DNA of 64,000 nucleotides from Nonlabens sp. Its GTDB lineage: Bacteria; Bacteroidota; Bacteroidia; Flavobacteriales; Flavobacteriaceae. Numbering within the stretch: the stretch's first letter is position 1; every line of letters begins with the position of its first letter. The notes below the pieces were generated by a model. It had not been told where the DNA came from. It worked only from the letters and a program-made list of their open reading frames with translations, and made no database searches. The stretch lies in the NCBI GenBank assembly GCA_020630715.1, contig JAHDIQ010000007.1:1-64000 (forward strand), written 5' to 3'. Of the stretch, positions 31,192-58,547 are shown one piece after another. The position numbers and the translations under genes were made by a program.

Positions 31192-31896
31192 GTGAGTTAT
31201 TACTATATGGATCAATTACTACAAAATATTAAGATCGAGATCAACGAAAAGATTTTCGTTAAGAATCCTGAATCATCAGATTTAGGAAAACGCATCATTG
31301 AATCTAGTATTGACTTAATTAATGAAATAGGCTTTGAACAGTTTAATTTTAAAAAGTTAGGAACTCATATAGGATCTAATGAAAGTTCTGTTTACCGCTA
31401 TTTTGAGAATAAGCATAAATTATTATTATACTTAACGTCGTGGTATTGGGCATGGATGGAATACAAACTAGTGATAGGAACTATTCAAATGACAGATCCT
31501 TCTAAAAAACTAGATGAAGCAATCCGTACACTTACTAAAGTGATTAATGCAGATTCTAATTTCTCTCATATCGATGAGGTGAAGTTGCAAAACATCGTTA
31601 TTGCAGAATATTCTAAATCATATCTTACTAAAGAAGTAGATAGTGAAAATAAACAAGGATACTTTAGTATTTATAAAAGATTAGTAGAGCGACTTACTAA
31701 TCTTATTAAAGAAGTAGATCCATCTTATAAATTTCCAGCATCATTGAGTAGTTGCATCCTAGAAGGTGCGTTACATCAACATTTTATAAAACAACATTTT
31801 AAAGCACTGACAGATTGTGATGATCAACTCACACCTACAGACTTTTTCTTAAACTTAGTTTCATCTACTTTATCATATTCAAATGGGAAAGACTAA
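31192..31896 (+). CDS. TetR-family transcriptional regulator
   Basis: A 234-residue regulator. A helix-turn-helix domain lies at about residues 28-75 (IIESSIDLINEIGFEQFNFKKL, then SNESSVYRYFENKHKLLLYL), with a long helical ligand or dimer domain after it. It heads the ABC-HlyD-TolC operon, overlapping the ABC gene by 14 bp, and probably controls it through the repeats at 31158-31186. The start here is GTG at 31192; an ATG at 31207 is an alternative. Confidence 0.82.
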   Translation: MSYYYMDQLLQNIKIEINEKIFVKNPESSDLGKRIIESSIDLINEIGFEQFNFKKLGTHIGSNESSVYRYFENKHKLLLYLTSWYWAWMEYKLVIGTIQMTDPSKKLDEAIRTLTKVINADSNFSHIDEVKLQNIVIAEYSKSYLTKEVDSENKQGYFSIYKRLVERLTNLIKEVDPSYKFPASLSSCILEGALHQHFIKQHFKALTDCDDQLTPTDFFLNLVSSTLSYSNGKD

Positions 31897-33553
31897 TATA
31901 TTAACTTCATGGCAACGTTTAACCAGACTGTTAGAGCTGGATAAGAAAGACGTGCGCCAGATTTTTTACTATGCGATCTTTGCAGGATTAGTAGGTCTTA
32001 CGTTACCACTGGGAATTCAGGCGATCATCAACCTGATTCAAGGTGCGCAAGTAAGTACTTCATGGATCGTGTTAGTGGTGCTGGTAACTTTAGGAGTTGC
32101 TTTTGGTGGTGTGTTACAATTAATGCAAATTAGAATTACAGAGAACATCCAGCAAAAGATTTTCACGAGATCATCTTTTGAATTTGCATACCGTTTTCCT
32201 AAGATCAAAATGAGCGAACTGCATGGTATTTATCCGCCAGAGCTGGCAAACCGTTTCTTTGATACCTTAACGATTCAAAAAAGTCTTTCTAAGATTCTAG
32301 TGGATTATCCTACGGCATTACTTCAAATTGTTTTTGGATTAATCTTGTTATCATTCTATCATCCATTTTTTATCATTTATGGATTCTTACTAGTTTTACT
32401 AGTATATATCCTATTAAAATACACCGCAGAGCGTGGCCTAGAAACCAGTTTAAAAGAATCAAAAAGCAAGTATAAAGTAGCGCACTGGTTACAAGAAGTT
32501 GCTAGATCCATCATTAGTTTTAAATTATCTGGTAGAACTAGTCTGGCACTTCAAAAAAATGATAAGCTAACTTCAGAATATTTGAATTATCGTGAGAACC
32601 ACTTTAAGGTACTGATCTCTCAATTTATTCAAATGATCGGTTTTAAAGTGCTGGTTACAGCTGGATTACTAGTGATAGGTGGAGTTTTAGTTTTAAACCA
32701 AGAAATGAACATCGGTCAGTTTGTTGCTGCAGAATTAATTATTCTAATCATTATAGGTGCAGTAGAGAAATTGATCACAGGATTAGAATCATTTTACGAT
32801 GTATTTACTTCGCTTGAAAAATTAGGGAATGTGGTTGATAAAGAATTGGAATCACACACCGGTGAGCGTCCATTTCATCCTGAAGAAAACTTTAGAGTAG
32901 AATTTGAAAATGTGACTTATGAAGTGCCAGATCGTAGTACACCTATTATTGACAATGTAAGCCTTAAAATTTCAGAGAATTGCACCATCTTACTTAAAGG
33001 AGACAATGGAAGTGGTAAAGCAACCTTACTAAGACTCATCGCTGGTATTATGCCACCGTCTAAAGGTAATATCTATATCAATAACACAGACCTTAGAGGT
33101 GTTTATTTGAATTATTACCGTTCACATTTAGGACAATCGTTAACTGAAGAGACTCCTTTTGAAGGTACTTTAAGGGATAATATCACCTTTGGAGATCCAG
33201 AGATAAGCGACGATCAGATTTACTGGGCGCTGGAAAAATCTGGTTTGAATCCGTTCTTAAAAAAGTTACAATTAGGTTTACAAACGACCATCTATCCAGA
33301 AGGTAAGCAGTTGTCGTATACCGTTGCAAAAAAGATCGTGCTAGCACGTAGTATTGTACGCAAGCCTAAAATGTTGATTCTTAAAGAACCATTAGATCAA
33401 TTTGATCAGGCAGAAGCAGTGCGTATCATGGATTTCTTAACAGATCCTAGTAATGGCTGGTCGCTAGTAGTAGTAAGTCAGGATAATAGCTGGGCGCAAC
33501 GTTGTAAGCGTGTGATTACATTAGATCAAGGACGTATCATTTCAGAAAAATAA
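31883..33553 (+). CDS. ABC exporter-like protein with degenerate nucleotide-binding domain
   Basis: A 556-residue half-transporter with type I exporter architecture: an N-terminal six-helix membrane domain (about 20-310) and a C-terminal NBD (about 330-556). Four catalytic motifs depart from consensus. Walker A is GDNGSGKA, with Ala380 in place of Ser/Thr. The signature is LSYTV (477-481) instead of LSGGQ. Walker B is LILKEP, with Lys501 for Asp. The H-loop His is Gln533. The Q-loop region and overall fold look intact and the frame is uninterrupted. With HlyD and TolC genes following, it would form a tripartite export system, but ATP hydrolysis by a homodimer looks unlikely. It may need an active partner or have lost ATPase function. 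Confidence 0.85.
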   Translation: MGKTNILTSWQRLTRLLELDKKDVRQIFYYAIFAGLVGLTLPLGIQAIINLIQGAQVSTSWIVLVVLVTLGVAFGGVLQLMQIRITENIQQKIFTRSSFEFAYRFPKIKMSELHGIYPPELANRFFDTLTIQKSLSKILVDYPTALLQIVFGLILLSFYHPFFIIYGFLLVLLVYILLKYTAERGLETSLKESKSKYKVAHWLQEVARSIISFKLSGRTSLALQKNDKLTSEYLNYRENHFKVLISQFIQMIGFKVLVTAGLLVIGGVLVLNQEMNIGQFVAAELIILIIIGAVEKLITGLESFYDVFTSLEKLGNVVDKELESHTGERPFHPEENFRVEFENVTYEVPDRSTPIIDNVSLKISENCTILLKGDNGSGKATLLRLIAGIMPPSKGNIYINNTDLRGVYLNYYRSHLGQSLTEETPFEGTLRDNITFGDPEISDDQIYWALEKSGLNPFLKKLQLGLQTTIYPEGKQLSYTVAKKIVLARSIVRKPKMLILKEPLDQFDQAEAVRIMDFLTDPSNGWSLVVVSQDNSWAQRCKRVITLDQGRIISEK

Positions 33554-33561
33554 TATAGGAT

Positions 33562-34920
33562 ATGCTTAATATTTCTAAAAAACCATTAATTCATAAGGTA
33601 GAAATCGATGATTTCCCTAGTGGTAAGCGTGTGATGGAACGCAAGCATTATAAGTATTTCAATAGATTCTTAACAGGAGCCGCTATTTTCTTATTTATCT
33701 GTTTGTTTTTACCATGGACGCAAAATGTTACAGGAAATGGCTTTGTAACTACGTTAACACCAGATCAACGTGCACAAACAATTCAATCACCTATTCCAGG
33801 TAAAATTGAACAATGGTATGTGCGTGAAGGTGATTCTGTAAGACGTGGTGATACTATTTTAAGAATTAGCGAGATTAAGAATGAGTACTTTGATCCACGA
33901 TTAGTAGAGCGCACGACAGATCAAATAGGTGCAAAAACTATTAGTGCAGATTCCTATACCTTTAAAGTTCAGGCATTAAATAATCAAATACAAACTTTAA
34001 ATAGAGAACGAGAACTCAAATTAGAACAAGCTCGTAACAAGTTAAAGCAAGCTAAATTTAAAGTAGCTCAGGATAGTATAGGACTAGTAAGAGCAAATGT
34101 AGATATCAAAATTGCTCAAACCCGATTAGATCGTGAAAAGCAGTTGTTAGATTTAGGAATCAATTCACCTAAGGATTTTGAAGAAAAACAACTGAAATTT
34201 CAAGAAACGCAGGAAAAATTAATTTCTCAAGAAAATAAATTACTTACTTCCCGCAATGGAGTGATTAATGCGATGCTAGAGATCGATAGAATTAAACAAG
34301 AAGTTGCAAACAAAATTGCCAAAGCAATGAGCGAACGCGCCACGGCACAGGCTAGTAGAGCTGATACAGATGCTCAGGTTTCTAAATTAGAAGTAGATCG
34401 TACTAATTACTCTATGCGTAATGATTTATATTTTGTCACTGCTCCTCAAGATGGATTTATCAACCGTGCGATTGTAGGTGGATTAGGAGAGACTTTTAAA
34501 GAAGGGCAACCGCTAGTAAATATAATGCCATTAAATTATGACCTTGCGGTAGAGACTTTTGTGGCTCCTATAGACTTACCGTTGATGCATGTAGGTGAAG
34601 AAGTGCGTATCCAGTTTGATGGATGGCCAGCGATTGTATTTTCGGGATGGCCTAATGTTTCTTATGGTACTTATGGTGCAAAGGTTGTCGCGGTAGAGAC
34701 CTTTGTAAGTGATACGGATGTAGGTAAATATCGCGTTTTACTTGCTCCAGATGCTAATGACCATCCATGGCCGTCAGAATTGCGTCCTGGTGCTGGTGCA
34801 TATACTATTGCATTGTTAGAGGACGTTCCAGTATGGTTTGAATTGTGGCGTCGTTTGAATGGTTTCCCACCTAATTATTATCAGCCTAAAGAAGGAAAAA
34901 AAGATGCTAAGAAAAAATAA
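33562..34920 (+). CDS. HlyD-family membrane fusion protein
   Basis: A 452-residue periplasmic adaptor. An N-terminal membrane anchor (about residues 35-55, TGAAIFLFICLFLPW) is followed by a split lipoyl/biotinyl-like domain (QTIQSPIPGKIEQWYVREGD) and a long alpha-helical hairpin (about 130-270, Lys/Gln-rich). A beta domain and a Lys-rich tail complete it. It connects the inner-membrane ABC protein encoded 8 bp upstream to the TolC-like channel encoded downstream. Confidence 0.88.
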   Translation: MLNISKKPLIHKVEIDDFPSGKRVMERKHYKYFNRFLTGAAIFLFICLFLPWTQNVTGNGFVTTLTPDQRAQTIQSPIPGKIEQWYVREGDSVRRGDTILRISEIKNEYFDPRLVERTTDQIGAKTISADSYTFKVQALNNQIQTLNRERELKLEQARNKLKQAKFKVAQDSIGLVRANVDIKIAQTRLDREKQLLDLGINSPKDFEEKQLKFQETQEKLISQENKLLTSRNGVINAMLEIDRIKQEVANKIAKAMSERATAQASRADTDAQVSKLEVDRTNYSMRNDLYFVTAPQDGFINRAIVGGLGETFKEGQPLVNIMPLNYDLAVETFVAPIDLPLMHVGEEVRIQFDGWPAIVFSGWPNVSYGTYGAKVVAVETFVSDTDVGKYRVLLAPDANDHPWPSELRPGAGAYTIALLEDVPVWFELWRRLNGFPPNYYQPKEGKKDAKKK

Positions 34921-36370
34921 ATCACATTTCTTATCAGTAATCTTAATGCTGGTTTGTGGTAGTACGGTGATGGGAAATACGCTTTCGCGAAAGCGTAATC
35001 TCAACAACCTAACTATCTTACAGCAACCTATAGATTCTACCGTTTTAACCTTTAATGAATATATGGGTTATGTAAAAGCTTATCATCCAGTGGCGAGACA
35101 AGCTGGATTAATCATTGATGAAGGACAGGCAGAAGTCTTGCGCGCCCGTGGTGGTTTTGACCCAAAGTTAGAGGTGGATTACGATCGTAAAGAGTTCAAG
35201 AGTCAGGAGTATTATGATGAGTTAAACGGTATGTTTAAAATCCCGACCTGGTATGGTGTGGAATTTAAAGCCGGAATAGAGCGCAATGAAGGTGCTTTTT
35301 TAAATCCGCGTAGTAGTGTGCCAGATGAAGGATTGTACAATGCTGGTGTAAGTGTGAATTTAGGTCAAGGATTGATTATTAATAATCGTATGGCAACCTT
35401 GCGCAAAGCAAAAATATTTAGAGAACAAACTCAGGTAGATCGTGATTTACTAGTAAATGCCATTCTTTATGAGGCGGCGCTGGCCTATTTTAAATGGTGG
35501 GAAGCACAACAGCAATATCAAATTTTTGATGAGTTTTTAGAAAATGCTCAAATACGTTTTGAAGCGATTAAAAGAGGAGCAGAGGTAGGCGATAAAGCAG
35601 TAATTGATACGGTAGAAGCTAGTATTGCTGTTCAAAACAGGATCTTAAGTAGAGAACAGGCTAGAATAAGTCTAGTAAAACAACGACTAAACATCGCTAA
35701 CTTTCTGTGGATTAATGATGTGCCCGTAGAATTACAGGCAAATGTTATTGCTCAAAATAATGTGGATGAAGAAATCGATAGTACGTTAGAGATTTTTGGC
35801 TTTCAATTAAACGAATTCAATATTGAAAATCATCCTAAGCTTAGATCTTTAAGCTTTAAAATTGACCAGTTAGACGTAGATAGACAGTTAAAAGCAAACA
35901 AACTATTACCTAAACTAACACTAGATTATAATTTCATTACTCCAGAATGGAATAATACAAACAGCGTCAGGTTGAATGATTATAAAGCTGGATTGCGATT
36001 TGCGATGCCGTTATTCTTAAGGAAAGAACGTGGTGATTTAAGACTGGCAAAAATTAAAATTGCAGATACAGAATATGAACGCGCAGCGACGCAACTAGAA
36101 ATACGTAATAAAGTAACTGCCATATTTAATGAGATTGATTCTTATAACCAGCAAACTCAAATGATAGGTGGAATAGTGGATGCATCACAACGTATGCTTA
36201 CTGCCGAGGAACGTAAATTTGAACTAGGTGATAGCTCACTGTTTTTAATTAATAGTCGTGAAGTGAAATTGATCGACTCTAAGCTTAAAGAGATTAAAAT
36301 TTACAACAAGTTATTTGTAAGTAAAGCTAACCTTTTTAAGAGTCTAGCCGTGATGCCAGAGAATTTATAA
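34904..36370 (+). CDS. TolC-family outer membrane efflux protein
   Basis: A 488-residue outer-membrane channel protein. The signal peptide (MLRKNKSHFLSVILMLVCGSTV, about 24 residues) is followed by a region with two outer-membrane-efflux repeats and long amphipathic helices. Its start overlaps the HlyD gene by 17 bp. An in-frame ATG at 34859 would add 15 non-signal residues and is less likely. A perfect palindrome at 34981-34994 encodes TLSRKRN directly after the predicted signal peptide. Confidence 0.85.
   Translation: MLRKNKSHFLSVILMLVCGSTVMGNTLSRKRNLNNLTILQQPIDSTVLTFNEYMGYVKAYHPVARQAGLIIDEGQAEVLRARGGFDPKLEVDYDRKEFKSQEYYDELNGMFKIPTWYGVEFKAGIERNEGAFLNPRSSVPDEGLYNAGVSVNLGQGLIINNRMATLRKAKIFREQTQVDRDLLVNAILYEAALAYFKWWEAQQQYQIFDEFLENAQIRFEAIKRGAEVGDKAVIDTVEASIAVQNRILSREQARISLVKQRLNIANFLWINDVPVELQANVIAQNNVDEEIDSTLEIFGFQLNEFNIENHPKLRSLSFKIDQLDVDRQLKANKLLPKLTLDYNFITPEWNNTNSVRLNDYKAGLRFAMPLFLRKERGDLRLAKIKIADTEYERAATQLEIRNKVTAIFNEIDSYNQQTQMIGGIVDASQRMLTAEERKFELGDSSLFLINSREVKLIDSKLKEIKIYNKLFVSKANLFKSLAVMPENL
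34981..34994. repeat. 14-bp palindrome GCTTTCGCGAAAGC
   Basis: Perfect copy in the TolC-like gene at the signal peptide/mature junction, read as LSRKR. Confidence 0.9.
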
Positions 36371-36502: not shown

Positions 36503-39500
36503 ATGAAAAGAATACTACTTCTATTAGCGTTTTTTATATCGCTAATAAGCACAGCACAAGTTACGGCTGGTCCAGTGCCAGATTATGTTATCTGCGATGA
36601 TCCATCTAATGATGGTGTAGAGATTTTTGATTTAAGCGTTTGGGATGCCCTAGCTATAGGAAATCAAGATCCAGCCACACACACGGTTTCTTATTTTGAA
36701 TCACAATTTGATGCGGTTAATAATTTAAATCCTTTAAATAATACGTTTTCAAATGTTACAAATCCGCAACTGATTTTTGTACGAGTAGATAATACCAGCA
36801 TTGGTAATTTTAATCTTACCACCAGTAATTTGATAGTAGAAGCCTTACCAGTGGTGAATAACCCACAAACTTTTACCTATTGTGGAACAGTAACCGCTAC
36901 TGGACAAATTCAAGTAGATCTTTATGATATTGAGCCTATAATGGCAAACGGTCAGAGTAATTTACTTTTTACTTACTTTTTAAGTCAGCAGGATGCTGAT
37001 ATGAATGCTAATCCACTCTCAACCACGTTTATTGCAAATGCAAACACACCAATTGATTTATTTATAAGAATACAAACATCGCTTAATTGTTTTGAAGTGA
37101 TCAATGTTGTTGCGATTCTTACTAATTGTAATCAAAGCTCTCAGGTGGTTGATTTAGAGCAATGTGGTGATCCTAACAATCTAGCTTGTTTTGACTTAAA
37201 TCAAAATACCGCACCAGCCTTAGGTACAAATTCTCCTACTACACATCAAGTAACTTATCATGCCTCGCAAGCAGATGCTGATAATAACCTCAACTCACTT
37301 CTTGTTACATACTGTACTCAAAATACCCAAACCATTTTTGTAAGAGTAGAAGAAATTGCAACAGGTAATGCAGATACTACACAGCAATTTAATGTAGTCG
37401 TTAATGAATCTCCTCAACAATATTCCTTCTCTCCAGTATTGGGTTGTGATTTAGGAATTGGTTTTGTTGAATATGATGCATCCACTGTCGTGTCAGAGAT
37501 TACAAATCTTCCTTCACCTGTGACTAGTTTTTCTGTAGAATATTATGAATCTATTGCAGATGCAAATAATAGAGTGAATCTGTTAGGAGTTGATTTTAAC
37601 TTTGCTGCACCTAGTAACCTTGTTCAAGTTTATGCTCGAGTTGAATTTTTACCTTCAGGATGTTCTAGTATTTCACCACTACAAGTATTTGTAGATCCTT
37701 CCTGTATATTTATAGGTCAAGGTCAAAACTTAGAAGATTGTCCAGATACAAATGGTCAAGCTTGTTTTGATTTAACTACAAATGAACTTGCAATTATAGC
37801 AAGTAATGACCCTAATATTCACGTTGTTACTTATCATTTAACCCAAGCAGATGCAGATCTAAATGTGAATGCTGTTGCAAATCCTAGCAATTATTGCGTT
37901 AGTCAGTTTACAACAATTTTTGCTAGACTATCTAATACTAATACAGGTGGATTTGCGATAACATCATTTAGTCTTTCAGTTTCTGATGCTTTAGTATCAA
38001 ATACTATATTAAATGAGGTTACTGGATGTGATGATGATTTAGATGGAACTGTGGTTATCGATCTTACCGCTGGTGCGTCACAACTATCATCTACTAATAC
38101 CATTGAATATTACGGCACTTTACAAAATGCCATTTCTGGAACAAGTGCACTACAAAATCCAACTAATTTTAATGTAGTACTTCAAGGGTTCAATCCTAAT
38201 AATTCTGTTTTTTTAAGAGAAGTGATGCCTAACGGTTGTGACATGGTTTATGAACTACCTGTCATCGCTTTTTCTAATTGTAATAATTCCTACTTATGTG
38301 ACAATGCGCAATCTTTATGTGATCGTATCAGTCAGCCGTTTCCTAATATCGCAGACGGTTCAACCGCAGAGCCTGGAAACTATTATCCGTTCTCACAGGC
38401 TAACGGACCTAGAAACCCATCATGGTTTTACATACCTATTGAGGCAAGTGGAGTAGTTGAATTAGAAGTGTACCAAAACACACAACCTGACTTTCTAGGT
38501 CAAGGTTTAGACATTGATTTTGTGATTTATGGACCATTTACGACACCTACTGGTGGATGTGCTACTGGAATCACCCAAGCTAATTATGTAGATCACAGTT
38601 TTTCTACAGCGATGCCAGAAATTGCAACAATTCCTAATGCACAGGCAGGCGAGTATTATTTAATATTGACCTCAAATTTCTCTACGCAATCAGGCTTTTT
38701 AAAATTTGAATTAGGAGCTAATTCTACCGCAACTATTAATTGTGATGGTTTCCGTATGAATGCCATCCTAGATACAAATTTAAATGGAGTAGTTGATGCG
38801 ACGGATGTTCCATTCCCGTTAGGAACCTTTAATTATGATAAAAATGCAAGTGGTTCTGTCATGCAAGTAGCATCACCTACAGGATCATACAGCGTTTTTG
38901 ATACAGATCCTACAGCTATTTATGATTTAGGTTATGATGTGTTGCCAGCATACACAACAAATTACACGGTTGCACCAGCAACCATTAATGGTGTAACTAT
39001 TCCTACAGGCTCAGGCGTGAGTGATCAAAATTTCTTAGTAACTGCTGTGAATGCTTATGAAGATGTAGTTGTCTACATCATTCCACAGGAACAGCCTAGA
39101 CCTGGATTTACCTATAAAGAAACCATTGTTTATGCAAATCTAGGAACTGCACCAGTAATGTCTGGACAATTAACCTATACGTATGATCCATTGTTGACCG
39201 TAGTATCAGTAGATGATCCTCTAGCGACCGTATCGCCAGTTTCTGTGGATTTAAACTATACAAACCTGTTACCATTCGAGTATCGCAGTATGGAAGTAGA
39301 GATGCAAATTCCAGTGATTCCTACCGTAGCTTTAGGTGATTTATTAACTAATACAGCAACCATCACACCAGTGATGAATGATATTACACCTAATGATAAT
39401 TCAAGTGTAAGTACCCAAGTGATCATAGGAAGTTATGATCCTAATGATAAGATGGAATCACGTGGACCGTTTATCAATCCAGCAGAATTTGACGCAAATG

Positions 39501-40111
39501 ACTATTTCTACTACAGAATTCGTTTTGAAAACACAGGAACTGCCAGTGCAATAAATGTGCGTATAGAAGATACACTAGATGCACAACTAGACTGGACGAC
39601 TATAGAAATGCTAGACGCGAGTCATCCTTATGTAATGACACGTATGGAAGATCAGGTGATTTGGAATTTTGACAACATCATGCTACCAGATAGCACCAGT
39701 GATCCAGTAGGAGCAAATGGTCATGTGTATTTTAGAATTAAACCTAATGTATTTACAGAAGGAACGGTAATTCCTAATACGGCCGAAATCTATTTTGATT
39801 TCAATCCGCCTATTATCACAAACACCTTTACCAGTACGTTTAGAACACCACTAAGTGTTGATACGCCACAAGTGATTGAATTATCTGTAAGTCCTAATCC
39901 ATCTAGTGGATTAATCACAGTAGGATTAAGCAATACCGTATTAGATAATGCAGAGTTGATATTGTACGATTTGCAGGGAAGAATTACGCTTTCGCGAAAG
40001 CTAACTCAAAACCAGTCTACCGTTAACATATCAGACTTGCCAGTAGGAATATACCTTGCCGAGTTGCGACAAGGCGATAACTCCTATACTACTAAGATTA
40101 TAAAAGAGTAG
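36503..40111 (+). CDS. Large T9SS cargo surface protein with repeated ~95-residue domains
   Basis: A 1202-residue secreted protein with a signal peptide (MKRILLLLAFFISLISTAQ). About six related segments of roughly 95 residues cover 20-600. Each has C-x-D/DP, a FDL-type strand and a motif like TYHxSQADADxNxNPL. The middle (about 600-900) contains CxNG/TGG-type beta segments. A DUF7619-like conserved domain (SYDPNDKMESRGPFINP through YFDFNPPIITNTF) follows, then a type IX secretion C-terminal sorting domain (SVSPNPSSGLITV, LPVGIYLAEL, KIIKE). It is probably displayed on the cell surface, perhaps for adhesion. A palindrome copy (39988-40001) encodes TLSRKLT in the sorting domain. Confidence 0.85.
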   Translation: MKRILLLLAFFISLISTAQVTAGPVPDYVICDDPSNDGVEIFDLSVWDALAIGNQDPATHTVSYFESQFDAVNNLNPLNNTFSNVTNPQLIFVRVDNTSIGNFNLTTSNLIVEALPVVNNPQTFTYCGTVTATGQIQVDLYDIEPIMANGQSNLLFTYFLSQQDADMNANPLSTTFIANANTPIDLFIRIQTSLNCFEVINVVAILTNCNQSSQVVDLEQCGDPNNLACFDLNQNTAPALGTNSPTTHQVTYHASQADADNNLNSLLVTYCTQNTQTIFVRVEEIATGNADTTQQFNVVVNESPQQYSFSPVLGCDLGIGFVEYDASTVVSEITNLPSPVTSFSVEYYESIADANNRVNLLGVDFNFAAPSNLVQVYARVEFLPSGCSSISPLQVFVDPSCIFIGQGQNLEDCPDTNGQACFDLTTNELAIIASNDPNIHVVTYHLTQADADLNVNAVANPSNYCVSQFTTIFARLSNTNTGGFAITSFSLSVSDALVSNTILNEVTGCDDDLDGTVVIDLTAGASQLSSTNTIEYYGTLQNAISGTSALQNPTNFNVVLQGFNPNNSVFLREVMPNGCDMVYELPVIAFSNCNNSYLCDNAQSLCDRISQPFPNIADGSTAEPGNYYPFSQANGPRNPSWFYIPIEASGVVELEVYQNTQPDFLGQGLDIDFVIYGPFTTPTGGCATGITQANYVDHSFSTAMPEIATIPNAQAGEYYLILTSNFSTQSGFLKFELGANSTATINCDGFRMNAILDTNLNGVVDATDVPFPLGTFNYDKNASGSVMQVASPTGSYSVFDTDPTAIYDLGYDVLPAYTTNYTVAPATINGVTIPTGSGVSDQNFLVTAVNAYEDVVVYIIPQEQPRPGFTYKETIVYANLGTAPVMSGQLTYTYDPLLTVVSVDDPLATVSPVSVDLNYTNLLPFEYRSMEVEMQIPVIPTVALGDLLTNTATITPVMNDITPNDNSSVSTQVIIGSYDPNDKMESRGPFINPAEFDANDYFYYRIRFENTGTASAINVRIEDTLDAQLDWTTIEMLDASHPYVMTRMEDQVIWNFDNIMLPDSTSDPVGANGHVYFRIKPNVFTEGTVIPNTAEIYFDFNPPIITNTFTSTFRTPLSVDTPQVIELSVSPNPSSGLITVGLSNTVLDNAELILYDLQGRITLSRKLTQNQSTVNISDLPVGIYLAELRQGDNSYTTKIIKE
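39988..40001. repeat. 14-bp palindrome GCTTTCGCGAAAGC
   Basis: Perfect copy in the sorting domain of the T9SS cargo gene, read as LSRK. Confidence 0.9.
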
Positions 40112-52308: not shown

Positions 52309-54756
52309 ATGGAAGAAGAACGAGAAATAAACCCGATCTCTGGTATATTTGATATCAAGCAGTTTTTTAGAAAATTGTTGCGTTTATGGTGGCTCTTTTT
52401 ATTGTGTATCACCATCGCAATGGCTTATGCTTACTATAAAAACCAGTTTATACAAACTTTCTATAAAATAGATTCTTTAATAAGTATTAAAGACAATTCT
52501 AATCCTTTATTTACCAGTAATACCAGCCTTACCTTTAATTGGGGTGGAACTACAGATAAAGTGACTACAGCAATAACACAATATAAATCTAGGTCTCATG
52601 CAGAACAGGTAGTAGATGAACTACAATTTTACATTGATTATATAAAAGAAGGTGAGTATTACAACATTGATGCATACAAGAAAACACCATTTTACATCTA
52701 TGCAGATACTAGTAAAACACAGTTATTTAAGAAGGATATCAGACTAAAAATTATCGATAATAACACCTATGAGTTAAGTGCAAATTTTGAAAGCACTACG
52801 ACTAATGGTTATGACTATCATGAAAAAGTTGTTAAAGATGTTAGTACGCCTCAAGGTGAGTGGAAAGCCCAGTTTCACTTTGGAGAACAAGTTGACTTAC
52901 CTTTTTTAAATATTTTAATCAATAAACGAGAGCAAACGGTACCTAAAGGTGAGTGGCTATTTAAGTTTTCTGATTATTGGGAAACAGTGAGTCGTTATAA
53001 AAAAATCTCAATATTACAAAAACCACAAGGCTCTTCAATTATAGAACTTTCCCTTTCCGGAACTAATAAATATAGACTCATTGATTACATCAATGAAAGT
53101 TCTGTTATATTAGAACGTGGCGAGTTAGAACGTAAAAACAAATTTGCTGTAAGTACGTTGAGATACATCGACAGCACGCTTAATCAGCAAGTAAACGCTT
53201 TAAAGGAAAGTGAAAAAAACTTAGAAGATTTTAGGAATAAATCCACTTTAATCGATTTAGAATCTCAAAATACAGATTACAATACTAAACTGACAAATTA
53301 TGAATTGCAAAAACGTGATATTTTAAATAAATTAAATTATTATGATAATCTTAAAACCTACCTTAATACAAATAGAGATTATTCTGTAATTCAAGCACCA
53401 TCTGTAGTAGGAATTACAGAAGGTAGTATTGCTGAGGCTGTTTCTAGGCTAATTTCATTATCAGAACAGCGTAAGAAACGTGCCTTTAGTATGCGTGAGG
53501 ATGCACCAGTCTTTAGTAGAATAGATAGAGATATTGATGCTGTAAAAAATGTAATTTTAACAAATATAGATAGCAGTAAATCGCTACTTACAGATGAGCT
53601 CAATGAAATATATGGCATGATCTCAAAAGTAGAGAGTCAGATCAAGAAATTACCAAAGGAACAACAAGATTATCTTAAAATTCAGCGACAATTTGATGTC
53701 AATTTAAATACTTACAATGCATTTATGGCAAAAAAGGCAGAAGCTTCACTGGTTAAGGCTGCTAATGTTTCTGATATATTTATTATAGACGCTGCAAAGG
53801 ATACAGGAGATGCAGGAACTCGTAAAAGCGCAAATATTAACTATCTCATTGCTCTATTAATAGGATTAGCAATACCTATAAGTATTGCATTTTTTCTAAC
53901 CTTACTCGATTTCTATGTACATACACCTAAAGATGTGGAACAACTCACAAATATTCCAGTCATAGGTGTGATAGGTAAAATGAATCATCCTACGAATTTG
54001 ATTGTAAAAGACAAACCTAAATCTACCATTGCCGAGGCTTTTAGAGGCATACGCTCTAGTCTTCATTTTATGTACGATCAGGAATCAGAATATGGTTCTA
54101 GAACGATTATGGCGACTAGTAGCGTTAGTGGTGAGGGAAAAACATTTACCAGTATCAATCTAGCTACGGTATTTGCCTTAAGTGGCAAACGAACCATTTT
54201 AGTAGGTTTAGATTTAAGAAAGCCTAAGATTTTTGATGATTTTGGGATTGATAATAATTTAGGAGTCAGTAATTATCTTGTAAATGATTGTAGTTTAAAC
54301 GAGATGATACGATCTGCGGGAATAGAGAATCTGGATATTGCTTTATCTGGTCCTGTACCACCTAATCCTAGTGAATTAATCATGTCAAAACGCGCAGGTG
54401 AAATGATTAACCAGCTTAAAAAAGATTATGATTATGTGATTTTAGACACGCCACCATTAGGTCTAGTGGCAGATGCTTTAGAAATTGCAAAACACGCAGA
54501 TGCTTCACTGTATTTAGTAAGACAAGGTTATACTAAAAAAGGAATGCTAGATGTGGTAAATGATAAATATCAACGCAAGGAGATTAAGAATTTAAGTATC
54601 GTTTTTAATCATTTTAATAGTAAAGGAACTTATGGCTATGGTTACGGCTATGGCTATGGCTACGGGAATTACGGTAATGGTTATCATGAAAACGAGCTTA
54701 AAAAAGGTTTTTTTAACAGACTTAAGAGTGCTATTGAGCGATTGTTTAATAGATAA
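52309..54756 (+). CDS. Wzc-like polysaccharide co-polymerase and tyrosine autokinase
   Basis: An 815-residue BY-kinase. An N-terminal Wzz domain with a membrane helix (about 25-45) leads to a long periplasmic coiled coil and GNVR-type region, then a second membrane helix (about 508-530). The cytoplasmic kinase domain has Walker A SSVSGEGKTFTSINLA (about 605-620), Walker A' with GLDLRKPKIF, and Walker B VILDTPPLG. The C-terminal tail has eight tyrosines in YG repeats (about 766-785), the usual autophosphorylation cluster. It controls chain length and export with Wza. No matching phosphatase gene is in the window. Confidence 0.92.
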   Translation: MEEEREINPISGIFDIKQFFRKLLRLWWLFLLCITIAMAYAYYKNQFIQTFYKIDSLISIKDNSNPLFTSNTSLTFNWGGTTDKVTTAITQYKSRSHAEQVVDELQFYIDYIKEGEYYNIDAYKKTPFYIYADTSKTQLFKKDIRLKIIDNNTYELSANFESTTTNGYDYHEKVVKDVSTPQGEWKAQFHFGEQVDLPFLNILINKREQTVPKGEWLFKFSDYWETVSRYKKISILQKPQGSSIIELSLSGTNKYRLIDYINESSVILERGELERKNKFAVSTLRYIDSTLNQQVNALKESEKNLEDFRNKSTLIDLESQNTDYNTKLTNYELQKRDILNKLNYYDNLKTYLNTNRDYSVIQAPSVVGITEGSIAEAVSRLISLSEQRKKRAFSMREDAPVFSRIDRDIDAVKNVILTNIDSSKSLLTDELNEIYGMISKVESQIKKLPKEQQDYLKIQRQFDVNLNTYNAFMAKKAEASLVKAANVSDIFIIDAAKDTGDAGTRKSANINYLIALLIGLAIPISIAFFLTLLDFYVHTPKDVEQLTNIPVIGVIGKMNHPTNLIVKDKPKSTIAEAFRGIRSSLHFMYDQESEYGSRTIMATSSVSGEGKTFTSINLATVFALSGKRTILVGLDLRKPKIFDDFGIDNNLGVSNYLVNDCSLNEMIRSAGIENLDIALSGPVPPNPSELIMSKRAGEMINQLKKDYDYVILDTPPLGLVADALEIAKHADASLYLVRQGYTKKGMLDVVNDKYQRKEIKNLSIVFNHFNSKGTYGYGYGYGYGYGNYGNGYHENELKKGFFNRLKSAIERLFNR

Positions 54757-54760
54757 TTTC

Positions 54761-54774
54761 GCTTTCGCGAAAGC
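54761..54774. repeat. 14-bp palindrome GCTTTCGCGAAAGC
   Basis: Perfect copy between the wzc-like stop (54756) and the wzm-like start (54790). It is the last copy in the window. Confidence 0.9.
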
Positions 54775-54789
54775 GTAATACGTCCACCT

Positions 54790-55659
54790 ATGAGCAGTAA
54801 AAAATGGCTTTATGAGATTAAACCTGTTGATGGTGCGTTGCGTTTTAATTTCAAAGAGATTTATGCCTACAGAGATCTGTTGTTCCTGTTTGTAAAACGT
54901 GATATCGTCACGGTTTATAAGCAAACCATTTTAGGACCTTTATGGTTTCTTATTCAGCCTTTATTAACATCAGTGATTTTTACGCTGGTTTTTAATGGTT
55001 TTGGAGCAATAGAAACACCTGGTAATATTCATCCTTTTCTTTTTAATCTTGCTGGTATTACGATATGGAATTATTTTAAAGAATGCCTTACTGGAACTAG
55101 TGATACGTTTAAAAAGAACCAAAACGTTTTTGGTAAAGTGTATTTCCCTAGAGTTATTATGCCTATGAGCGTGACCGTTTCAAATTTATTGAAACTGGGA
55201 ATACAACTGTTTATTTTTATTATCTTCTATATCTATTTCTATTTACAAGATGCCGCTGGGCAACCTACCGTATTTCTAGTGCTTTTACCAGTGTTAATAA
55301 TGATAATGGGATTACTAGGATTAGGTTTAGGAATGACGATTTCTTCTCTTACTACAAAATATAGGGATTTAAATGTGCTGGTAGGTTTTGGTGTACAATT
55401 ATTAATGTATGTAAGTGCAGTTCCTTATAGTTTAAGTGAAATTAGGAACTCTGATAATGAATGGGTACAAGCTGCCATACCTTTTATTGAGTACAATCCA
55501 CTTACACAGGTGATAGAAGGTTTTAGAAGCATGGCACTTCATACTGGTACTTTTGATGGTCTCATGTTTATGTATGCGCTGGTGATAAGTACTGTAGTTT
55601 TTTTAATAGGATTGATCATTTTCAATAAAACCGAAAAGAATTTTATAGACACCGTATAG
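54790..55659 (+). CDS. ABC-2 type polysaccharide exporter permease (Wzm-like)
   Basis: A 289-residue inner-membrane protein with six helices. The N-terminal cytoplasmic DLLFLFVKRDIVTVYKQTILGPLW is the signature of the Wzm/TagG family, and the loop FKKNQNVFGKVYFPRVIMP is conserved. It pairs with the ATPase encoded 3 bp downstream to flip a completed undecaprenyl-linked glycan. Confidence 0.92.
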   Translation: MSSKKWLYEIKPVDGALRFNFKEIYAYRDLLFLFVKRDIVTVYKQTILGPLWFLIQPLLTSVIFTLVFNGFGAIETPGNIHPFLFNLAGITIWNYFKECLTGTSDTFKKNQNVFGKVYFPRVIMPMSVTVSNLLKLGIQLFIFIIFYIYFYLQDAAGQPTVFLVLLPVLIMIMGLLGLGLGMTISSLTTKYRDLNVLVGFGVQLLMYVSAVPYSLSEIRNSDNEWVQAAIPFIEYNPLTQVIEGFRSMALHTGTFDGLMFMYALVISTVVFLIGLIIFNKTEKNFIDTV

Positions 55660-55662
55660 TTT

Positions 55663-56949
55663 ATGAGCCATAGTGAAGACATCATACTTAAAGTAGAACA
55701 TATTTCTAAACAATACCGTCTAGGAGTGGTGGGAACTGGTACGATCTCACATGATTTAAATAGATGGTGGCATAGAATCCGTGGTAAAGAAGATCCCTAT
55801 TTAAAAATAGGCGCTACAAATGATCGTAGCACAACTAGTGAGTCTAGTTATGTATGGGCTTTAAATGATATCAATTTTGAAGTGCAACGTGGAGAAGTTC
55901 TAGGCATTATAGGTAAAAATGGTGCTGGCAAATCTACTTTACTTAAAATTTTATCTAGAGTTACAGGACCTACTACGGGTAGTATTAAAACATGTGGTCG
56001 TATCGCCAGTTTACTAGAAGTAGGGACGGGTTTTCATCCAGAATTAACAGGTAGAGAAAACATCTATTTAAACGGTGCAATTCTAGGAATGACTAAAAAG
56101 GAAATCTCAGAAAAAATAGACGAGATTATTGAATTTTCTGGTTGCCAGCGCTATGTGGACACACCTGTAAAACGCTACAGTAGTGGTATGACGGTACGAT
56201 TAGCATTTGCAGTAGCAGCGCATCTAGAACCAGACATTTTAATCGTAGATGAGGTGCTAGCCGTAGGTGATGCCGAGTTCCAGAAAAAAGCTATAGGAAA
56301 AATGCAGGATATTTCTTCTGGGCAGGGAAGAACCGTGCTGTTTGTGAGTCATAATATGGCAGCAGTTAAGAATTTGTGTAAAACAGGAATCGTACTAGAA
56401 AATGGTGAGATTACTTTTAAAGGATCTAGTCTTGATGCTGTAGCGTTTTATCTAAATGAATCTTCAAAAGCTTCTGGATCTAGTCTAGACACCATTAAAG
56501 ATCGTAGAGGAAACGGTGCTGTAAGATTTCAATCTATTGAATTATGGAACAGTAAAGAGGTGGCTGTAAAAGAGGTGCTTATAGGAGAACAAGTTAAATT
56601 TAGATTTGTATTAGATTACAATGAAAGCAAGATTAGATTGAGCGAGTGCTGCATAGGTGTGGTTATTAATAGCTTAAATGGCACTAAAGTGGCTGATTTT
56701 TATTCTGATGAGATGGGAATTATCTTTAGTGATGATAAAAAACATATAGATCTTACTATTGATAACTTGCCCTTAAGAGGTGGTAATTATAAAATAACAG
56801 TGGTTATACAGTCCTTAACGATAGGTGGTTTAATCTATGATAGAATAGGAGATGCTATGTTTTTTAATGTTTTTACGGCAGATGTGTATAAAAGCGGTAA
56901 AATGCTACGTGCGACTAATGTGAGTTTAATTGAAGGAAGGTTTTCTTAG
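55663..56949 (+). CDS. ABC polysaccharide exporter ATPase (Wzt-like) with C-terminal glycan-binding domain
   Basis: A 428-residue ATPase. Walker A is GKNGAGKSTLLKIL, the signature YSSGMTVRLAFAVA, Walker B ILIVDEVLAVGD and the H-loop VSHN, so the catalytic set is complete. Residues from about 275 form a beta-rich Wzt C-terminal domain, which in O-antigen systems recognises the modified glycan end. It overlaps nothing essential; the next gene starts 4 bp after its stop. Confidence 0.93.
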   Translation: MSHSEDIILKVEHISKQYRLGVVGTGTISHDLNRWWHRIRGKEDPYLKIGATNDRSTTSESSYVWALNDINFEVQRGEVLGIIGKNGAGKSTLLKILSRVTGPTTGSIKTCGRIASLLEVGTGFHPELTGRENIYLNGAILGMTKKEISEKIDEIIEFSGCQRYVDTPVKRYSSGMTVRLAFAVAAHLEPDILIVDEVLAVGDAEFQKKAIGKMQDISSGQGRTVLFVSHNMAAVKNLCKTGIVLENGEITFKGSSLDAVAFYLNESSKASGSSLDTIKDRRGNGAVRFQSIELWNSKEVAVKEVLIGEQVKFRFVLDYNESKIRLSECCIGVVINSLNGTKVADFYSDEMGIIFSDDKKHIDLTIDNLPLRGGNYKITVVIQSLTIGGLIYDRIGDAMFFNVFTADVYKSGKMLRATNVSLIEGRFS

Positions 56950-56953
56950 CTTT

Positions 56954-57739
56954 ATGAAAAAAATCAAAAATATACTAAAGAAAATATTAGGTTATCAACC
57001 TAATGTTCATCGGAATAATGATTTGAAACTCTTGAAAAATAATAAAACGGAAGTTTTGATTTTAGGAAGTGCCCCAAGTGTAAATAAATTAGATTTTTCA
57101 AAAATAAATAATCAATTTATTATTTCAAGTGCAAATTTTCACGAGCATAAGGATATTGATATTATTAAGCCAGATATACATGTTTTTGCGGCTTCTCATG
57201 AGCCTATAACTAAAAATGTGATGATGAATTGGTTTAAGAGATGTCATAAGAAATTACCACAATCAACAGCCATTCTAGTTGAAGAAAGGGATCGCTTAAT
57301 CGCATTAAAAAGCTTTCAGAATAGAAAAGTTTTTTTTTACAGTTATGGTGGAAAACTACCTGTTAATTTTAACAAAAGAATTATGTCTCCTTGGTCTGTT
57401 GGTGTTGTGTGCCTACAACTAGGTGTTTTTTTAAATTTTAAAAAAATATATTTACTAGGTATCGATCATGATTGGCAATTTTTAAAACCATACAAACACT
57501 TTTATTCACATGATAAAGAGTCACTTGAGTATTATGGTTCTTTGGATAATATTGTTTTTGAAAACGAAATTTCTAGTGGTCGCTTACCTAAAAAAAGATT
57601 ATACACACAATATGAATTATATCAACAATATGAGCTTTTAAATTCCTATGCCAGCAAAAGGAATATAATTATTAGAAATGGCGATGAAAATACCGGTTTT
57701 GATGTTTTCCCATTTTGTTACGACTGGAAAAAAAACTAG
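56954..57739 (+). CDS. Putative glycan-modifying protein (DUF115/sialyltransferase-like), uncertain
   Basis: A 261-residue protein. A Rossmann-like start has LILGSAPSVNKLD (about residues 33-45). IISSANFHEHKDID and the later YLLGIDHDW (about 168-176) also stand out. The G-x-x-PS motif followed by a short Asp loop recalls DUF115 and GT42 sialyltransferase-like proteins, but I cannot place it firmly. Its location in a glycosyltransferase row suggests transfer or modification of a sugar. ATG 56954 follows the wzt-like stop; an ATG at 56930 lies inside that gene. Confidence 0.5.
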   Translation: MKKIKNILKKILGYQPNVHRNNDLKLLKNNKTEVLILGSAPSVNKLDFSKINNQFIISSANFHEHKDIDIIKPDIHVFAASHEPITKNVMMNWFKRCHKKLPQSTAILVEERDRLIALKSFQNRKVFFYSYGGKLPVNFNKRIMSPWSVGVVCLQLGVFLNFKKIYLLGIDHDWQFLKPYKHFYSHDKESLEYYGSLDNIVFENEISSGRLPKKRLYTQYELYQQYELLNSYASKRNIIIRNGDENTGFDVFPFCYDWKKN

Positions 57740-57743
57740 CTAT

Positions 57744-58547
57744 ATGAAGTTTGTGAAAAAAATAATTCCAAATGGAATTAAAAAGTATTTAAGAGAACTT
57801 CTATTTACAGAAACAAAACCTTCTTATTTGAACTTTCCTAGGTATACTGTTTTAAATGTGGAGTTATTAGGAAAGAAAATAACTATACCAGACAATCGTT
57901 CTTATTATTTTATGCACAAAGAGATATTCGAGGAAGAGATATATCGATTTGAAACAAGTAAAACGAACTTATTCATTATTGATGCAGGAGCTAATATTGG
58001 ATTAGCTACTATCTATTTTAAAAATAAATACAACAATGCAGAAATATTAGCTTTTGAACCTGATAAAACTATATTTAATGTCTTGAAAAATAACATAGAA
58101 TCTTATAACTTTAATAAAATTACTTTAAGGAATACTGGTTTATGGAGAGAGAATGATGAATTATTCTTTGAGGAAGAAGGAGCGGATGCAGGCCGTATTA
58201 TCCAAAGAAAGATGGATTTGAAATCTCACATTACTGTAGAGAAATTAAGTCCTTATATTACAAAAGATGTAGATTTTTTGAAAATTGATATTGAAGGAGC
58301 AGAAACAGAAGTTTTACGTCAAATAGAAAGTAAGTTGTCTTTTGTAAAACGTATTTTCATTGAATATCATTCTTTCATAAATGAAGAACAATCATTACAT
58401 GAAATATTTAAGATATTAAATGATGCGAATTTTAGAATCTATGTTTCTTCTCCTGGATTATCTAGTAATCAGCCCTTATTTCATATTAATAAATATAATG
58501 GAATGGACATGCAATTAAATATTCATGCTTTTCAAATAGGTATATGA
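57744..58547 (+). CDS. FkbM-family methyltransferase
   Basis: About 267 residues. The SAM-binding loop LFIIDAGANIGLATIYFKNK (about residues 74-93), EILAFEPDKTIF and FLKIDIEGAETEVL are the FkbM-family hallmarks. These enzymes O-methylate sugars or small molecules, and here probably a sugar of the surface polysaccharide. The start at 57744 follows the preceding stop by 4 bp; an in-frame ATG at 57678 lies inside the previous gene. It overlaps the next gene by 4 bp. Confidence 0.85.
   Translation: MKFVKKIIPNGIKKYLRELLFTETKPSYLNFPRYTVLNVELLGKKITIPDNRSYYFMHKEIFEEEIYRFETSKTNLFIIDAGANIGLATIYFKNKYNNAEILAFEPDKTIFNVLKNNIESYNFNKITLRNTGLWRENDELFFEEEGADAGRIIQRKMDLKSHITVEKLSPYITKDVDFLKIDIEGAETEVLRQIESKLSFVKRIFIEYHSFINEEQSLHEIFKILNDANFRIYVSSPGLSSNQPLFHINKYNGMDMQLNIHAFQIGI

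Follow-up and report, generated by a model that had tools for sequence, protein, structure and literature searches.

Type I secretion systems such as HlyB-HlyD-TolC, and the PCAT exporters PCAT1 and ComA, share their fold and their adjacent HlyD and TolC genes with the locus described here, an operon for an ATP-binding cassette (ABC) exporter with a degenerate nucleotide-binding domain (NBD) in 64,000 nucleotides of Nonlabens sp. DNA (contig JAHDIQ010000007.1). This whole stretch is called the window, and coordinates refer to it. HlyB and the PCATs carry a C39 or C39-like domain before the transmembrane domain (TMD), whereas the window protein has none, and unlike in type I secretion exporters the NBD appears catalytically incompetent and is absent in one clade of relatives. 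Substitutions of the same type in Walker B, signature and H-loop of a folded NBD are known from TM287/288, TAP and TmrAB. However, those exporters are heterodimers that keep one complete site together with a partner, while here one gene has lost all these motifs and no partner is encoded close by.

A TMD of the ABC exporter fold that has no NBD and is driven by protons is found in SbmA, which descends from a full-length ABC transporter and whose full-length relative YddA has an incomplete glutamate ladder (PMC13316013, accessible part). According to the same part of that source, the family of the full-length SbmA relatives YddA and BclA consists mostly of full-length ABC transporters, and one Rhizobium genome is reported to have a YddA-type TMD gene whose operon contains no NBD (PMC13316013). 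The window family resembles the SLiPT group (SbmA/BacA) in having a type IV ABC exporter TMD without a working ATPase of its own and in its descent from a full-length ABC transporter (as that part describes it for SLiPT), and resembles YddA/BclA in that full-length relatives exist alongside an NBD-less branch. It differs from SLiPT in being linked to HlyD-TolC and in that an intermediate pseudo-NBD stage is still abundant. It also differs from YddA/BclA, for which the accessible part of PMC13316013 describes no stage with a decayed NBD, in that the NBD has decayed over a large clade.

The genes of the operon all lie on the + strand with gaps of a few bases or overlaps between them:

31192 to 31896, + strand: TetR-family regulator that opens the operon, with a GTG start (Pfam TetR_N, 30 bits)
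31883 to 33553, + strand: ABC exporter with pseudo-ATPase domain, 556 amino acids (aa), ATG start overlapping the end of the TetR gene (open reading frame, ORF; Pfam)
31910 to 32848, + strand: type IV ABC exporter TMD, spanning residues about 10-322 and more strongly conserved than the NBD (ABC_membrane)
32891 to 33550, + strand: degenerate NBD, residues 337-556 (ABC_tran; the model segment aligns with the NBDs of ComA and TAP1)
33562 to 34920, + strand: HlyD-type membrane fusion protein, 452 aa (Pfam HlyD_3, 52.5 bits)
34904 to 36370, + strand: TolC-type outer membrane factor (Pfam OEP, 125.4 bits), its ATG at 34904 picked by eye and overlapping the end of the HlyD gene

The exporter frame is open, and the degraded motifs named in the original prediction are found exactly as it gave them. 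The membrane domain and the HlyD and TolC neighbours, which it called intact, have Pfam matches, with both genes directly behind the exporter gene; in the exporter itself ABC_membrane (38.6 bits) and ABC_tran (72.1 bits) both exceed their cut-offs. The window thus has the gene order of type I secretion, an ABC exporter followed by HlyD and TolC, and the best score with the NCBIfam models for type I secretion permease/ATPases is 209.4 bits (TIGR03375), against a cut-off of 693.1. The closest named relatives of the protein, from Nonlabens and BBFL7, are 82-83 % identical. The TetR-type regulator probably controls the operon.

The motor of the window protein is altered at the following positions, those of the A-loop and Q-loop having been located through alignment to solved exporters:

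32924 to 32926, + strand: A-loop position, Tyr replaced by Val (V348; alignment to solved exporters)
32999 to 33022, + strand: Walker A GDNGSGKA, residues 373-380, Lys kept and Ser/Thr replaced by Ala (sequence and family tally)
33143 to 33145, + strand: Q-loop position, Gln replaced by Thr (T421; alignment to solved exporters)
33311 to 33325, + strand: signature position, LSYTV in place of LSGGQ, residues 477-481 (sequence and family tally)
33374 to 33391, + strand: Walker B LILKEP, residues 498-503, Asp replaced by Lys (sequence and family tally)
33479 to 33481, + strand: H-loop position, His replaced by Gln (Q533 in VVVSQ; sequence and family tally)

Of the residues looked for as a sign of ATP hydrolysis (Walker B Asp and Glu, LSGGQ, H-loop His), the protein keeps the Glu alone. 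The family alignment has 110 rows, the window and 109 further loci (102 distinct), almost every one of which carries the label Flavobacteriaceae or that of one of its genera; copies from G157, G044, G006 and G057, with open frames of 555-558 aa and one TAA within the aligned stretch, were left out. The Walker B Asp position holds Asp in 0/110 rows (Lys 94, Arg 9, others 7), LSGGQ occurs in none, its third and fourth letters being mostly Tyr and Thr, and the H-loop position is His in a single row (Gln 47, Glu 33, others 29). At the position of the catalytic Glu most rows have Asp (99, with Asn in 7 and Glu in 4), the window protein having Glu. No aromatic residue stands at the A-loop position in the 108 rows aligned there (Val in 91; 2 gaps). 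The Walker A Lys, by contrast, is retained in 109/110 rows, and the adjoining position is Ser or Thr in 88, Ala in 12 and Asn in 10. Since only 12 rows share it, the Ala of the window protein is a local extra and no family trait. The four degraded motifs of the original prediction therefore do not form one set: Walker B, signature and H-loop are degraded family-wide, the Walker A Ala is not. An intact exporter served as control, and in the copy of the window genome and the copies from the genomes of 29 relatives it keeps Walker A, LSGGQ or ISGGQ, DEAT and IAHR in 30/30 rows.

As judged from the alignment, the common ancestor of the 110 rows had already lost Walker B, signature and H-loop, and the motor loss is old. 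Recent local decay or sequencing error was considered and rejected, because the degenerate motifs are family-wide and the frames of relatives are open. Close homologues with consensus motifs, the finding that would have spoken for such decay, did not occur among the 110 rows. The family-wide loss of motifs supports the expectation that a homodimer should not normally hydrolyse ATP.

Gene order has been kept along with the degenerate motor. Among 80 named loci examined with flanks of up to 6 kb, TetR, ABC, HlyD and TolC genes are collinear on one strand in 76, the remaining four being cut by contig ends. Both HlyD and TolC are present in 77/80, the others again being cut by contig ends, and 79/80 have a TetR relative upstream of the ABC gene in the same orientation, the 80th being cut by its contig; in L087 and L096 it is upstream yet not directly adjacent. 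The original prediction had asked whether the substitutions are conserved in a clade with this order, and for Walker B, signature and H-loop they are. A second exporter gene was found in none of the 80 neighbourhoods, flanks of up to 6 kb included, and another NBD-like ORF in just one (L065), where it encodes a 264-residue stand-alone ATPase.

Constraint on the two domains is reversed relative to the intact exporter, the TMD being the more constrained part. Mean pairwise identity in 30 genomes is 0.830 for the TMD and 0.624 for the NBD, and the NBD is the more similar domain in 0/435 pairs. For the control exporter of the same genomes the values are 0.664 and 0.741, and the NBD is the more similar in 297/435 pairs. 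Median omega is 0.040 for the NBD versus 0.017 for the TMD, with the NBD higher in each of the 14 close pairs (9 distinct) that were sufficiently unsaturated; the single control pair of this kind gives no useful control.

The distribution of the family across the phylum places this degenerate group among relatives with better preserved motors. A profile search at E <= 1e-70 recovered the family in 99/392 genomes of the phylum (window genome included), where misses are not to be equated with absences because the profile was built from Flavobacteriaceae and only few candidates were scored per genome. Fourteen outer rows from elsewhere in the phylum, none belonging to the class of the window, were compared with 76 full-length rows of an inner clade, 71 from that class and 5 from others; 12 further matches in other classes were left out. 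All five scored catalytic positions (Walker A Lys, Walker A Ser/Thr, Walker B Asp, catalytic Glu and H-loop His) are kept in 9/14 outer rows versus 0/76 inner rows, and the Walker B Asp in 14/14 versus 7/76. HlyD and TolC genes lie behind the ABC gene in 10 of the outer rows. The outer rows are called active here as a judgement from sequence, because their signature is merely LSxG-like (Gly at the fourth letter in 9/14) and the Q-loop Gln is absent from all 14, as it is from the window protein; Q-loop loss does not discriminate for that last reason. Within the inner clade the Walker B Asp position is Glu in 42/76 rows, many rows reading Glu-Asp or Glu-Glu, and the A-loop aromatic is often retained (Tyr in 25, Phe in 17).

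Immediately upstream of the ABC gene, two of the outer loci (L160 and L161) have an ORF of roughly 1000 residues with an NBD match. For the L161 ABC protein the highest score is with an NHLP bacteriocin export model, far under its cut-off, which hints at an ancestral link with peptide export. Some full-length relatives have an N-terminal extension before the TMD (L175, L177, L180, L181, L183, L179, L240 and L241, with frames of 719-748 aa), 148-178 residues long in the six that were measured. No Pfam match was found in the five extensions scanned, those of L181 and of four outer relatives with 138-251 residues. Neither the window protein nor the TMD-only clade, whose branch lies next to L179, L240 and L241, has such an extension.

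That clade came to notice through six matches of the phylum search that spanned the membrane domain only. In targeted searches of three host families, with a TMD-only gene defined as an open frame of <= 430 aa, such genes made up 64/148 matches in f10 (150 genomes), 30/66 in f3 (151 genomes) and 23/87 in f9 (100 genomes); in these tallies the G788 match is a fragment, as is one of two from G939, and a broken G963 copy, present as two pieces, is uncounted. HlyD and then TolC follow on the same strand in 33/33 TMD-only loci examined, and in every one of these the HlyD frame overlaps the TMD frame or starts <= 63 bases behind it. No separate NBD gene lies between TMD and HlyD in the 33 loci. Another match to the NBD profile occurs in the flanks of four: an AAA_21-type ATPase in L151 (18 bits), a PmtA/GldA-like ABC ATPase behind TolC in L155, and ABC-F-like proteins in L231 and L232. 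In two genomes, G729 and G819 (L214-L218), a TMD-only operon coexists with another operon whose full-length gene is degenerate, each with its own HlyD and TolC.

A tree of 123 rows was built from TMD columns only, by a quick method without bootstrap, and its root is unsure because the outgroup does not fall on one side of a branch. All 33 TMD-only rows form one clade (Shimodaira-Hasegawa-like approximate likelihood ratio test, SH-aLRT, 99) within the inner clade (SH-aLRT 100). Together with four rows whose NBDs are strongly decayed they make up a group of 37 rows (SH-aLRT 98). The simplest reading of the tree is that NBD loss followed decay and happened once in this sample. Several independent losses had been expected from the three host families, and the tree instead has one TMD-only clade; because that clade occurs in three families, transfer or old duplicates are implied. 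On this sequence evidence the NBD is dispensable in one branch. When NBD-bearing rows are set against NBD-less ones, the greatest change is in the coupling-helix-2 region (203-222), where identity is 0.21 versus 0.42 overall and lengths vary. This is consistent with a TMD to which an NBD has ceased to dock, at least via helix 2.

The absence of an NBD that characterizes SLiPT is found in the 33 TMD-only loci, while the window protein has its degenerate NBD. A Pfam family exists for SbmA/BacA. The window protein matches only ABC_tran and ABC_membrane in Pfam (to E 0.001), and in six TMD-only proteins ABC_membrane is the sole Pfam family above cut-off (scans to E 0.01 and 0.1). The TMD-only frames are about 335-430 aa long, and the shorter ones leave no room for the extra TM0 helices of SbmA/BacA.

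By domain content and modelled fold the window protein is a type IV ABC exporter. Its model has a mean predicted local distance difference test score (pLDDT) of 72.6 and a predicted template modelling score (pTM) of 0.51, and a second model has 74.6 and 0.47. No contacts were read from these models because they are of moderate quality and parts of two coupling-loop regions are under 50. Transmembrane (TM) helices are modelled at 21-54, 60-104, 119-157, 162-213, 220-271 and 277-315. Among the matches listed by a fold search, VIA Z is 28.4 for the top match, 28.2 for TAP and 27.9 for MsbA; it is 26.9 for PCAT1 (8vox) and HlyB (8dck), and the alignments to these four exporters, at VIA Z 26.9-28.2, span 470-549 residues. 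SbmA is not among the 50 fold matches listed for this model of moderate confidence. The best solved relatives of the TMD profile are the peptide exporters ComA and then PCAT1.

Two acidic positions of TM6, whose burial was inferred from helix limits and hydropathy, stand out:

32732 to 32734, + strand: Glu 284, within the hydrophobic segment of TM6; of 123 family rows 122 have Glu and one has Asp (alignment)
32765 to 32770, + strand: Glu 295-Lys 296, TM6, three turns past Glu 284, position 295 acidic in 121 of 123 rows (alignment)

ComA and PCAT1 carry Asn at position 284. A new glutamate ladder gained at NBD loss was looked for in the TMD alignment and not found. Among charged TMD positions conserved in both inner groups none falls below 50 % in the 14 outer rows, the lowest shares being those of Arg12 and Lys21 (0.57) and Lys107 (0.64), and only position 87 shifts, from mostly Asp in the outer rows (9/14) to Glu. 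Uncharged switches or switches of identity between outer and inner rows occur at positions 31, 44, 60, 82, 87 and 280.

We consider it fairly probable that the operon encodes a tripartite exporter or gate without ATP hydrolysis, its TMD doing the work and its NBD being a pseudo-ATPase. The products would assemble into an exporter or gated conduit of inner-membrane protein, HlyD and TolC, whose inner-membrane part would be a type IV ABC exporter that has ceased to hydrolyse ATP and probably either draws on a different energy source or serves as a gate. Transport or gating independent of ATP hydrolysis by the ABC protein is likely because none of the 76 full-length inner rows keeps the five catalytic positions, gene order is kept, the TMD is constrained and a clade without NBD is nested within. 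The transmembrane dimer, together with HlyD and TolC, would then be the working element. With less certainty, the pseudo-NBD of the window protein may be a structural or regulatory domain that possibly still binds phosphate groups, because the Walker A Lys is kept. Equally guarded is the suggestion that export may be powered in SbmA-like manner by the proton gradient, our preferred but unproved energy source, through buried acids, for which Glu284 and Glu295 in TM6 are candidates along with Glu87 and His240. The exported substrate might be a peptide, a weak guess by analogy, made because ComA and PCAT1 are the nearest solved relatives of the TMD.

Several observations weigh against this proposal. 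NBD loss looks like a single event, with no repeated trend, and the region of coupling helix 1 is not unusual in TMD-only rows (identity 0.41), as could be explained by an NBD or other partner acting in trans. One inner-clade row, L248, keeps four of the five catalytic residues, so that decay appears gradual and some members might be slow ATPases. Glu284, Glu295, His240 and the other conserved buried charges also occur in the outer ATPase-like relatives and hence were not gained at motor loss. Finally, the Flavobacteriaceae NBD is under purifying selection and so is not vestigial there: with omega at about 0.04 a neutral relic is rejected, and the pseudo-NBD apparently still matters for folding, stability or control.

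The main rival to a non-hydrolysing exporter driven by another source is a scaffold or ligand-gated conduit, in which the TMD merely assembles or gates HlyD-TolC and substrate moves down its gradient without energy coupling. An energy-independent conduit and a scaffold had been among the options of the original prediction. Retention of TMD, HlyD and TolC without the motor would be expected of such a conduit, as would NBD loss that brought no new set of buried acidic residues. However, the strong conservation of the TMD in pairs from Flavobacteriaceae is that expected of an alternating-access transporter and the TM6 acids are nearly invariant, so we regard a passive conduit as unlikely. The retained Walker A Lys and the purifying selection on the NBD could also mean that the pseudo-NBDs bind nucleotide and dimerise as a switch without hydrolysis, somewhat like the degenerate site of CFTR or TAP, with some other input in the TMD-only clade. 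Yet the Flavobacteriaceae A-loop has lost its aromatic residue, the metal-site Asp is replaced (by Lys or Arg in 103/110 rows), the signature glycines are gone and one clade has no NBD at all, which makes an ATP-gated switch quite improbable.

The original prediction had listed a heterodimer with a catalytically active half-exporter among its options, here one whose gene lies at another locus of the genome. It is common for exporters to be heterodimers in which one site is degenerate (PMC7756269, accessible part), and the window genome holds other half-exporter genes (L002-L004). Nevertheless, neither composite site would be complete with signature, Walker B and H-loop all gone from one and the same chain, the 264-residue stand-alone ATPase is the only other NBD ORF in the 80 neighbourhoods, and the TMD-only clade cannot make an NBD sandwich in this way. 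On these grounds an obligate active partner is disfavoured and in our view very unlikely. A motor that works with unusual residues is extremely improbable; the Glu found at the Walker B Asp position in over half of the inner-clade rows would suit such a non-canonical ATPase, but the nested TMD-only clade has no NBD and the relatives of the window itself are mostly basic at the metal site.

Elsewhere in the window, a 1202-residue ORF directly behind the operon (36503-40111) has a signal-like start and repeated sections, and its C-terminal end resembles a type IX secretion sorting domain. An apparent polysaccharide export cluster, read by eye without family search, lies at 52309-58547 and consists of a chain-length-determinant-like kinase (52309), an ABC-2-type permease (54790), a Wzt-like ATPase (55663) and two more ORFs. 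This ATPase had been cited as having every motif, and it is indeed intact, with the signature YSSGM replacing LSGGQ; YSSGM is usual for Wzt.

No description of the family turned up in searches of the open-access literature. Tripartite ABC pumps are taken to be ATP-driven, and here many members of a bacterial class appear to keep the pump with a dead or absent motor. It is possible, and put forward tentatively, that the family represents a second, separate origin of an ABC-fold secondary transporter, the first wired into a HlyD-TolC conduit, in which a type I secretion ABC exporter of Bacteroidota gave up ATP for a different source of energy, the proton gradient being the likeliest. Genes that domain models annotate as 'ABC transporter' or 'ABC transporter transmembrane region' may be mis-described in function. 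Within one operon family there seems to be a living series from a motor that is intact, to one that is dead but kept, to one that is gone. This series would allow one to ask how a primary transporter becomes a secondary one, a question that, as far as the accessible part of PMC13316013 goes, has so far rested on SbmA and an inferred ancestor.

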